DNA from: Gammaproteobacteria bacterium
GTDB taxonomy: Bacteria; Pseudomonadota; Gammaproteobacteria; Ga0077554; Ga007554
Assembly: GCA_040183005.1 (NCBI GenBank)
Contig: JAMPIW010000004.1
Coordinates: forward strand, 124,001-188,000
Direction of reading: 5' to 3'
DNA: 64,000 nt
The translations under genes and the position numbers were made by a program. Below are positions 1,531 to 63,524 of this stretch, piece by piece (positions within the stretch are counted from its first letter, which is position 1; every line of letters starts with the position of its first letter). A model generated the notes under the pieces. It was given only the letters and a program-made list of their open reading frames with translations, searched no databases and was not told the origin of the DNA.

Positions 1531-2904
1531 ATGAAAATCATCATCCTCGGCGCAGGCCAGGTAGGTTCGTCGGTAGCAGCCAATCTGGTCAGTGAGGCCA
1601 ACGATATTACGGTGGTGGATACCAACCAGGACCTTCTGCAAAACCTCCAGGACCGTTTCGACCTGCGCACCGTGTGCGGCGAGGCCTCCCACCCCGAGAT
1701 GCTGCGGCGCGCTGGGGCGGAGGATGCGGACATGATCCTCGCCGTCACCAACAGCGATGAAACCAACATGGTGGCGTGCCAAGTGGCGTACACACTGTTT
1801 CGCACCCCCACCAAGATAGCACGCGTGCGCTCCAACGAATATCTTAGCCATCCCCAGTTATTCGCCAGCGATGCGCTCCCTATCGACTTCCTGATCAGCC
1901 CCGACCAGGCGGTGACGGATTATATCCAGCGTTTGATTGAATACCCCGGCGCACTCCAGGTGCTCGATTTTGCTCACGGCAAGGTACGGCTGGTGGCAGT
2001 GCGCGCCTACCATGACGGGCCGCTGGTGGGGCGCGAATTGCGCACCCTGCGCGAACACATGCCAGGCGTTCAGACGCGCGTTGCCGCCATCTTTCGCCGC
2101 GATGCGCCTATCGTTCCCGAGGGCAATACCGTCATCGAGGTGGGTGACGAAGTGTTTTTCATTGCCGCCAGCAAAGACATCCGCGCGGTGATGAGTGAGC
2201 TGAGGCGACTGGATAGCTCCATTAAACGCGTGATGATCGCGGGCGGCGGCAATATCGGGAAACGCCTCGCCAAGGCGCTGGAAAATGATTACCAGATCAA
2301 GGTCATCGAGCACAACCAGAAGCGCGCGCGCGCCCTGTCGGAAGAGCTGAAAAAGGCCATTGTCCTGCTGGGCGATGCCACCGATGAAGATCTGTTGCGT
2401 GAAGAAAACATCGAAGCCACCGACATATTTTGCGCGCTGACTAATGACGACGAGGATAATATTCTCTCCGCCATGCTCGCCAAGCGCCTCGGTGCGCGCA
2501 AGGTAATGGCGCTGATCAACCGCTCCGCCTATGTCGACCTGGTGGAGAGCGGCACGATCGACATCGCAATATCACCCCACCAGGCGATGATCGGTAGCCT
2601 GTTGGCCCATGTGCGGCGTGGCGATGTTGCGGCGGTTCACTCCCTGCGGCGCGGCGCGGCGGAGGCTCTGGAGGCAGTGGCGCACGGCGACCGCAAATCA
2701 TCGAAAGTGGTAGGGCGCGCCATTCAGGACATCAAACTACCGCCGGGCGCCAGCATTGGCGCCATGCTGCGCGGTGATGAGGTGATTATCGCCCATCACG
2801 ACACCGTGATCGAAGCGGAGGATCACGTCATCCTGTTCCTGGTCGATAAAACCCGTATCCGCGACGTGGAGCGCCTGTTTCAAGTGAGCGCGATGTTTCT
2901 TTAA
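1531..2904 (+). CDS. trkA: Trk potassium uptake regulatory subunit TrkA
   Basis: This is the cytoplasmic NAD(H)-binding gating subunit of the Trk potassium transporter, which docks on TrkH. The 457 residues match the usual length and contain two RCK modules. The first starts with the Rossmann motif [13 protein letters not shown] at the N terminus and an acidic residue in VVDTN. The second starts near residue 234 with [15 protein letters not shown]. Each is followed by a TrkA-C domain; the second ends with the [15 protein letters not shown] segment. The gene lies between ntrX and trkH on the same strand, with 37 and 86 bases between them, and is probably co-transcribed with both. Confidence 0.97.
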
Positions 2905-2990
2905 AAAGTAGAAAAAACCAAAAATGACGAGGCAAAGCATGGCGTTCCACCGGTTTTCTGATTTGCTTTTTGTTTATTAACTGCTAAAAA

Positions 2991-4442
2991 ATGCAACTCT
3001 CCGCCATACAACGCATACTCGGTCTTCTTTTGATGCTGTTCAGCATCACCATGCTGCCTCCGGTGGCGGTATCTTTCTGGTACGACGACCACACCGCAGA
3101 ATCATTCCTGCTGGGTTTCGCATTGACGCTGTTGGCAGGTTTTCTGTGTTGGCTGCCGGTGCGTTCTTTCCGCAAGGAATTGCGTCTGCGCGACGGCTTT
3201 CTGATCGTGGTGATCTTCTGGACTGCGCTGAGTATGGTCAGCGCCTTACCGTTCATGCTTGCCGAGCACCCGCACATGTCGTTCACCGACTCGGTTTTTG
3301 AATCGGTGTCGGGTTTCACCACCACCGGCGCAACGGTGATGGTCGGCCTCGATCACATGCCGCAATCCATCCTCTATTATCGCCAGCAACTGCAATTTCT
3401 CGGTGGCATGGGAATCGTGGTTCTGGCAGTGGCCATCTTCCCCATGCTCGGCATCGGTGGCATGCAGCTCTATCGTGCCGAGACGCCGGGGCCGATGAAA
3501 GACAACAAGCTTACCCCCCGCATCACCGAAACGGCGCGGGCTTTGTGGTACATCTATCTAGGCTTGACGGTGGCCTGCGCGCTGGCTTATTGGCTGGCGG
3601 GTATGAGCCTGTTCGACGCCATCGGCCACAGCTTCTCCACCATCTCCACCGGCGGTTTTTCCACCCATGACGCCAGTCTTGGCCACTTCAACAGCGCACT
3701 CATCGACGCTATTGCTACCGTGTTCATGCTGCTCGGCGGGTTCAACTTCGCGGTGCATTTTATGGCATGGCGGGAGCGGGATATCCGCCACTATTGGCGC
3801 GACGCAGAGGCGCTCGCCTTCCTCGGTATCGTCGCCGCGATTATAGCGATAGTCGTCGTGACGTTGATGGTCACGCAAAAATATCCGGACATATGGAGCG
3901 CATTGCGCTATGGCTCTCTCCAGGTAGTCACCATGATTACCAGTACCGGTTTCCTGACGGCGGACTTCGCGTCCTGGCCGCTGTTCCTGCCCGCATTGCT
4001 GATGGCCATTGGTTTTATCGGTGGCTGCGCCGGTTCAACTGCGGGCGGTATGAAAGTGGTGCGTATCCTGCTGCTCTACAAGCAGGGCATCCGCGAGATC
4101 ATGCGCCTGATCCATCCCAACGCCATCATCCCCGTCAAAATCGGCGAGCGTTCGCTGCCGGACCGTATCGTTGAAGCCGTATGGGGATTCTCGGTACTTT
4201 ACATCACCAGTTTTGTCGTGCTGTCGCTGGCGCTGATGGGCACCGGGTTGGATGTGGTCACCGCCTTCTCCGGCGTCGCCACCTGCCTCAACCTCGGCGG
4301 CCCCGGCCTCGGCGCAGTGACGATGAATTTTACCATCGTCAATGATGTTGGCATCTGGATACTGAGCTTCGCCATGCTCCTGGGGCGTCTTGAGATATTC
4401 ACGCTACTGGTGTTGCTGACACCGGCGTTTTGGCGGAAGTAG
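2991..4442 (+). CDS. trkH: Trk potassium channel subunit TrkH
   Basis: This is the inner-membrane, ion-conducting subunit for potassium uptake, gated by TrkA. At 483 residues it has the family length and about ten hydrophobic segments plus re-entrant pore loops. Selectivity-filter-type glycine motifs are visible: SGFTTTGATV near residue 107, FSTISTGGFSTHD near 220, ITSTGF near 316, and the last loop CLNLGGPGLG near 435. The ATG follows ACTGCTAAAAA without a strong ribosome binding site. The gene ends at TAG 4440-4442 and is followed by a 335-base non-coding stretch, so it probably closes the ntrYX-trkAH transcript. No clear terminator was found. Confidence 0.96.
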   Translation: MQLSAIQRILGLLLMLFSITMLPPVAVSFWYDDHTAESFLLGFALTLLAGFLCWLPVRSFRKELRLRDGFLIVVIFWTALSMVSALPFMLAEHPHMSFTDSVFESVSGFTTTGATVMVGLDHMPQSILYYRQQLQFLGGMGIVVLAVAIFPMLGIGGMQLYRAETPGPMKDNKLTPRITETARALWYIYLGLTVACALAYWLAGMSLFDAIGHSFSTISTGGFSTHDASLGHFNSALIDAIATVFMLLGGFNFAVHFMAWRERDIRHYWRDAEALAFLGIVAAIIAIVVVTLMVTQKYPDIWSALRYGSLQVVTMITSTGFLTADFASWPLFLPALLMAIGFIGGCAGSTAGGMKVVRILLLYKQGIREIMRLIHPNAIIPVKIGERSLPDRIVEAVWGFSVLYITSFVVLSLALMGTGLDVVTAFSGVATCLNLGGPGLGAVTMNFTIVNDVGIWILSFAMLLGRLEIFTLLVLLTPAFWRK

Positions 4443-4623
4443 TTGGTTGGCGTATTGATCTTGCGCATTAACATGCACAAGATATGGTGTATTTTGTCGG
4501 CGCATTTCAGTGGTCCTATCCTGCTGAATATCAATGTATTTTCCTGTGTCAATCCTTTGATGTTTTCGTATGTCATTGTTTTTTATTGTATAAAAAATAT
4601 GCCTTCATGGAGGCTCACGCGTG

Positions 4624-19541: not shown

Positions 19542-19614
19542 TTGATTTCCCTTCATGGACGTTGATGGAGTGATGTATCAGGCGCAGCACACAGAGCCTG
19601 CGTCTGACACTTTA

Positions 19615-19852
19615 ACCTAAAAACGGCAGTTGGACGGGGTGGAGTGTGCGGTTTTCAGGGTGCAGGGCAAGGCGCGACGACGCGGAATGGTTGTTCCATT
19701 CCAAGGAGTTGCAACGCTGCCATGCGCACTGAAAATCGTGCGATCCGCTCCGTAGCGGCCTCACCAAACAGGTGAACCTGCATGATATGATGAATCTTAT
19801 TAAAAGAATATTGTTAGCCGCCCAGAAAAGCGGCCAACTGCCATTTTTAGGT
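19615..19852 (+). mobile_element. Miniature inverted-repeat element, copy 1 (238 bp, TTA duplication)
   Basis: The left end ACCTAAAAACGGCAGTTGG and the right end CCAACTGCCATTTTTAGGT are inverted repeats of about 19 bp with one mismatch. The element is flanked by TTA at 19612-19614 and TTA at 19853-19855. The interior has no plausible gene. It is closely related, end to end, to the inverted copy at 57401-57678. It lies between the ComEA-like gene and the phosphoketolase-like gene, 12 bases from the latter's stop. Confidence 0.85.
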
Positions 19853-19864
19853 TTACACCCTACA

Positions 19865-57368: not shown

Positions 57369-57400
57369 TTGAAGTTCTCCTTGATGCTGGCAATATCTGA

Positions 57401-57678
57401 ACCTAATAACGGCAGTTGACCGCTTTTTTGGGCGGTTAGCAATATGTTTTTGAACGGGTTCTTTATATTTTGCGAGTTCATCTTTCTGGTGAGCCCGCTA
57501 CGGAGCGGATTGCACGGTTTTCAGTGCGCATGGCAGCGTTGCAACTCCTTGGAATGGCATTGCCACCTTCACGGTGGAACAACCATTCCGCGTCGTTGCG
57601 CCTCATTGTGCCCTTCACGGGTATGCCCTGCACCCCGAAAACCGCACACCCCACCCCGTCCAACTGCCGTTTTTAGGT
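57401..57678 (-). mobile_element. Miniature inverted-repeat element, copy 2 (278 bp, TGA duplication)
   Basis: It is inverted relative to copy 1 (19615-19852) and shares with it the ends ACCTAA.AACGGCAGTTG and CAACTGCCGTTTTTAGGT and most of the interior. TGA at 57398-57400 and 57679-57681 is the 3-bp duplication. Compared with copy 1 it has two extra short hairpins with CCTTCACGG cores (57567-57581 and 57611-57621). No gene is inside. It separates the small unknown gene from uvrD. Confidence 0.86.
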
Positions 57679-57735
57679 TGAAATGGTATCAGAGTCTTTC
57701 AAAATATGACCCATCGAATCTGGTAGAATTCAATT

Positions 57736-63238: not shown

Positions 63239-63524
63239 ACCTAAAAACGGCGATTCACCGTATGCGTCCAGGCGCGGAAACTGTTACGACAATGCGCCGA
63301 TGGCGAGCTTCTGGGGGAGTCTAAAGAATGAACTGGTGCATCACCGGCGATATGCCACCCGTGCAGAGGCAGAAGCCTCCATCCGGGAGTACATCGAGAT
63401 TTTTTATAATCGCCAAAGGCGTCACTCGCGCCTTGGCTATGTTGCCCCGGCTGTGTTTGCGGATAATTTCATCAAACAACAGGCCGGCGCTTGAAGCGGG
63501 TATGTCCGTTATTGACAGGACACC
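63239..63524 (+). pseudogene. 3' fragment of an IS3-family transposase (OrfB)
   Basis: From about 63258 the frame reads SPYASRRGNCYDNAPMASFW, then SLKNELVHHRRYATRAEAEA, YIEIFYNRQRRHSRLGYVAP and a stop at 63494, the end of an IS3 OrfB. The DDE glutamate is Ala (NAPMASF for NAPMESF) and the upstream catalytic part is missing. TGTCCGTTATTGACAGGACA at 63503 may mark the old right end. The left junction carries ACCTAAAAACGGC (63239-63251). Confidence 0.8.

Follow-up and report, generated by a model that had tools for sequence, protein, structure and literature searches.

Miniature elements with TNA target duplications in a gammaproteobacterial genome and their probable source in an IS1380-related transposon group

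Two short gene-less repeats lie in opposite orientation in the 64,000-nucleotide stretch of gammaproteobacterial DNA analyzed here (called the window for simplicity), and they raise the question of whether they arrived by transposition and which enzyme might have moved them.

Two copies in the window and their insertion

Copy A (19615–19852, plus strand, 238 bp; ends ACCTAAAAACGGCAGTT / AACTGCCATTTTTAGGT) has the inverted ends ACCTAAAAACGGCAGTT (19615–19631, plus strand) and ACCTAAAAATGGCAGTT (19836–19852, minus strand), is flanked by TTA at 19612–19614 and 19853–19855, and has a phosphoketolase-like gene on one side and a helix-hairpin-helix gene on the other. Copy B (57401–57678, minus strand, 278 bp; ends ACCTAATAACGGCAGTT / AACTGCCGTTTTTAGGT) is located just upstream of a UvrD-type helicase gene and contains two short internal additions absent from copy A; its inverted ends are ACCTAATAACGGCAGTT (57401–57417, plus strand) and ACCTAAAAACGGCAGTT (57662–57678, minus strand), and TGA flanks it at 57398–57400 and 57679–57681. 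The original prediction had described two full copies in opposite orientation with matching inverted ends and exact TTA and TGA duplications, and this description was confirmed in every part, as was the non-autonomous character of the copies, within which there is no transposase gene. Matches to the ends with up to three mismatches numbered 5 in the window versus 0.04 expected from shuffled sequences, which rules out chance. The window also contains a solitary related end of a sister family (ACCTAAAAACGGCGATT, 63239–63255, plus strand), which is directly joined to an IS3-type transposase remnant (rve_2, rve_3; together 63239–63495).

Both insertion sites are uninterrupted in a genome of the same genus (G001), which has a single TTA at site A and a single TGA at site B; site A is likewise empty in a further genome (G002), with a 2-bp difference. 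Empty sites with a single TTA or TGA demonstrate insertion with duplication of 3 bp, and on this genomic comparison, together with the target duplications, copies A and B are shown to have transposed, as had been claimed.

Searching the 3.33-Mb source genome of the window for the ends and tabulating the TNA duplications, a check suggested in the original prediction, yielded 13 full copies of 120–278 bp, with exact TNA duplications in 8 and duplications off by one base in 5. The strict pattern of TNA followed by the end has 23 matches in this genome, versus none for its reversed control. Exact TNA duplications were also found at three elements with related ends (C4:196684, C2:383182 and C7:1217995). 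The sister family is represented in the source genome at C1:127939, C4:47010, C7:1106695, C2:383182 and C7:1217995 by elements of ~167 bp and longer with ends ACCTAAAAACGGCGATTCACCGC and CCGCAGAG-type arms, two of them with exact TNA duplications. Minimal forms were observed as well, namely a 24-bp perfect palindrome consisting of two fused ends in the source genome (C1:191429–191452) and two facing ends ~40 bp apart in genome G005 (C78:13150–13195); these are possibly deletion products.

Among 95 relatives, 7 genomes contained the ends, with all four members of the genus among them, and the reversed control gave none. TNA followed by ACCTARAAACGGCAGTTG matched at least 118 contig stretches from many phyla, with carriers including Gamma- and Betaproteobacteria, Chlamydiae, Verrucomicrobia, Kiritimatiellae, Nitrospirae, Nitrospinota, Magnetococcales, Acidobacteria and Desulfobacteraceae, the names being those given in the records, many of which are metagenome bins that may contain stray contigs. 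An identical TNA was found on both sides of 52 of the 67 complete small elements, where about 1 in 4 is expected because the search pattern itself required T and A; the remaining 15 were without exact duplications. Element length peaks at 165 bp (22 elements) and at 236–237 bp (10 elements). The pattern is nearly absent from viral contigs, with locus L209 as one exception.

Autonomous partner elements and their transposase

Insertion sequences with the same ends, which the original prediction had proposed to look for, were found and encode IS1380-related transposases. The viral contig L209 carries two ends 1640 bp apart (1179–2818, TTA/TTA) that enclose a 514-aa gene, in L257 TCA/TCA flanks 1723 bp with the same ends and a transposase gene, and the Polaromonas plasmid CP087967 (L294) harbors an intact 1632-bp element (2869–4500, TAA/TAA) only 356 bp away from a 236-bp MITE. 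TNA duplications are exact in these three autonomous elements; L258 and L261 have both ends and a transposase but unequal flanks. An end search of plasmids had given weak matches, among them the Polaromonas plasmid later found to hold a partner, and clustering of the open reading frames near the ends of exact-end loci revealed no common transposase because exact-end matches are mostly MITEs. With the ends of L209, L257 and L294 in common, the family of copies A and B has the properties of miniature elements (MITEs): its members are shorter than ~600 bp, contain no transposase gene, have inverted ends, are multicopy and are flanked by target duplications.

The partner transposases are DDE-type proteins of ~510 aa belonging to Pfam DDE_Tnp_1_4 (PF13701), to which the L209 protein matches above the Pfam cut-off (E 1.2e-24). 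The closest NCBIfam model is that of IS1380, with 108–160 bits in six proteins, which does not reach the cut-off of 180. Homologues with 45–54% identity occur in MITE-bearing genomes of Verrucomicrobia, Nitrospirae, Opitutaceae, Chlamydiae and others and have the same kind of ends; all transposase genes found within these ends encode PF13701 proteins. In a phylogenetic tree, nine transposases form one clade (support 100/100), set apart by a branch 3.3 changes per site long from ISEc9, ISSsu5 and further IS1380 members. The last two rows of this tree are long, which makes the placement of those rows unsure.

The source genome contains a frameshifted fragment up to 50% identical to the partner group (C4:7128–7402) and another IS1380 relic of ~30% identity, which is less like the partner group (C9:48461–49259). 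No intact partner gene was found in the source genome and its close relatives, and a transposase search in 398 genomes of the phylum at E <= 1e-60, run without a positive control, returned none, which suggests that the autonomous partner is rare. The match between the ends and the lack of a gene within the copies lead us to infer that a partner-group transposase moved the copies in the window. The action of a transposase in trans, as originally predicted, is thus supported by gene-less copies whose ends match those of autonomous elements.

A subterminal palindrome on one side of the elements

The palindrome TCACC-N5-GGTGA is present as TCACCAAACAGGTGA in copy A (19761–19775, 78 bp from the right end) and, with one mismatch, as TCATCTTTCTGGTGA in copy B (57478–57492, 78 bp from the left end). 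Each of the 12 autonomous left ends examined, several of which are gene fragments, contains it (11 perfect, one mismatch in L261), and it starts 77 bp (Polaromonas), 86–88 bp (nine) or 100 bp (two, Chlamydiae) from the end's first C. No such motif was seen at this distance in the right ends that were inspected. The palindrome is perfect in 18 of 38 non-redundant MITEs versus 0 of 760 shuffles, 1.2% of which reached a one-mismatch score; in about half of the MITEs it is imperfect or absent. Nearly all good matches in MITEs are 76–78 or 89–91 bp from an end, and the palindrome is central in most 165-bp MITEs (76 bp from both ends) and in the 192-bp MITEs (89–90 bp from both ends). Over the autonomous left ends and most MITEs taken together, its distance from one end is 77–78, 87–91 or 101 bp. 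Comparison of the sequences shows that ends, duplications and palindrome are common to MITEs and transposase-encoding elements.

The same palindrome is found in classical IS1380 members and hence seems older than the TNA group; measured from the left end's first C, it is at 76 bp in ISEcp1/ISEc9 and ISSsu5 and at 77 bp in the Aliarcobacter cibarius IS1380. Individual occurrences in this register are L297 1006–1020 (ISEc9), L314 (ISEcp1 beside CTX-M-14) and L296 (ISSsu5); the ISEcp1 palindrome sequence was not found in the open-access papers searched. At about the same distance from its left end, another IS1380 subgroup (L243 1367–1450, L266 1207–1300) carries a different palindrome, TCTAATGG...CCATTAGA, a hint that the site co-varies with the IS1380 subgroup.

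We interpret the palindrome as a putative second binding site for the transposase, present on one side and required in cis. The main rival, which accepts the MITE and IS1380 assignment, is that the palindrome is a regulatory signal (an operator or a structure in the transposase mRNA) that the MITEs inherited by descent; the palindrome is located close to or at the transposase start, and in L208, L284 and L294 it overlaps an ATG. However, the palindrome keeps to set distances from the end, at intervals of ~12 bp, close to a helical turn, whereas its position relative to the start codon varies: it is upstream of the annotated start in ISEc9 and within the open reading frame of L257 and L260. The palindrome is moreover kept in gene-less elements, and several copies are complementary almost to the center, leaving little loop for an RNA hairpin. 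These features favor a site in the DNA, and we regard a regulatory role as unlikely, although more credible than the other alternatives considered below.

Taking the DNA-site interpretation further, the one-sided palindrome ~77, 88 or 100 bp from the end may be a conserved cis component of IS1380-type elements including ISEcp1, which would bind a transposase dimer and give the synapsis an asymmetry like that of piggyBac; the TNA group would then constitute an IS family of its own from which MITEs spread across many phyla, and one central site could serve both ends in the 165- and 192-bp MITEs. We give this set of proposals, taken jointly, slightly less than an even chance.

Source of the elements and relation to known systems

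As a whole, the data are best explained, with a probability of roughly 90%, by MITEs that stem from an IS1380-related TNA group and are served by its transposase in trans, the role of the palindrome included. Gene-less elements would have derived from a separate IS1380-related group with the ends WCCTA(A/G)AAACGGCAGTT, which inserts at TNA and duplicates 3 bp; its transposase would have acted in trans on copies A and B, the gene in the source genome now being only the frameshifted fragment, and a transposase dimer would bind the palindrome, which sits ~78 bp in from one end and may be compared with piggyBac's palindromic internal repeat. Counting against this explanation are the lack of an intact local partner, the inexact duplications (5/13 in the source genome and 15/67 among the complete elements), the imperfect or missing palindrome in about half of the MITEs and the unequal flanks of L258 and L261.

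The original prediction had instead named an IS5-family (IS1031-type) transposase as the source. TNA duplications of 3 bp are typical of IS1031-type elements, but the partners with the same ends, TNA and palindrome encode PF13701 transposases, the only type found between these ends. The loci of IS5/IS4-type and PIF-type transposases (PF01609, PF13359) examined in MITE-bearing genomes, which in the source genome covered 21 of the 35 PF01609 places, have no pair of these ends, and genome G069 (85% complete) is rich in MITEs with no PF01609 or PF13359 match, making this source very improbable. A 402-aa DDE_Tnp_1 transposase is present in the source genome in more than 20 copies, most of them with identical scores (e.g. 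C1:112299, C7:721560, C9:111826), a sign of a recent burst.

Least probable of all are REP-type repeats moved by Y1 (RAYT) transposases: the source genome has nine Y1 genes, a Y1 gene adjoins one of these ends in L119 and the elements fold into long hairpins (strong ones for copies A and B as RNA, z -11.0 and -6.3), but none of the nine Y1 loci contains the ends, the L119 gene has no second end, and a target duplication of a constant 3 bp next to inverted ends points to a DDE enzyme rather than Y1. Four of the Y1 (RAYT-like) genes lie within ~5 kb (C4:213850–218918).

Neither the end nor the palindrome sequences were found in the open-access papers searched, and Rfam has no match for the elements. 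Judged by the open-access literature, the TNA group is likely undescribed, in line with the original suggestion that the family might be new. An origin from this IS1380-related group would assign a source to a widely scattered set of repeats, define a transposon group with a target duplication unlike that of classical IS1380, and point to a cis element also present in ISEcp1, which is important as a carrier of beta-lactamase genes. If true, IS1380 would offer a bacterial system in which to model piggyBac's asymmetric ends.

The partner group and the IS1380 family both have a PF13701 DDE transposase and ends beginning CCTA (ISEcp1 CCTAGATTCTACGT), in addition to the palindrome. The ends of piggyBac likewise begin CCCTAGAAA. 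The partner group differs from classical IS1380 by its score below the NCBIfam cut-off, its separate clade on a long branch and its 3-bp TNA duplication, compared with 4–5 bp in classical members: the ISEcp1 duplication is 5 bp (PMC2887853), and the A. cibarius IS1380 is apparently flanked by ATAAT/ATAAT. Prokaryotic IS1380 has been used as outgroup of piggyBac (PMC10813416), in which asymmetric ends are required and contacts to a palindromic internal repeat, located 17–33 bp from the end, are made at only one of the ends (PMC7351741); piggyBac is eukaryotic, targets the 4-bp TTAA instead of TNA and has its palindrome nearer to the end. An AlphaFold model of a partner transposase (pLDDT 53) was too poor for a fold search. 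The Tn3-derived TIMEs (PMC4133298) are likewise short, gene-less elements with inverted ends and target duplications that depend on a transposase in trans, but they have another transposase source, whereas the MITEs described here have ends that are nearly identical across many phyla, a fixed subterminal palindrome and preferred lengths of 165 and 236–237 bp.
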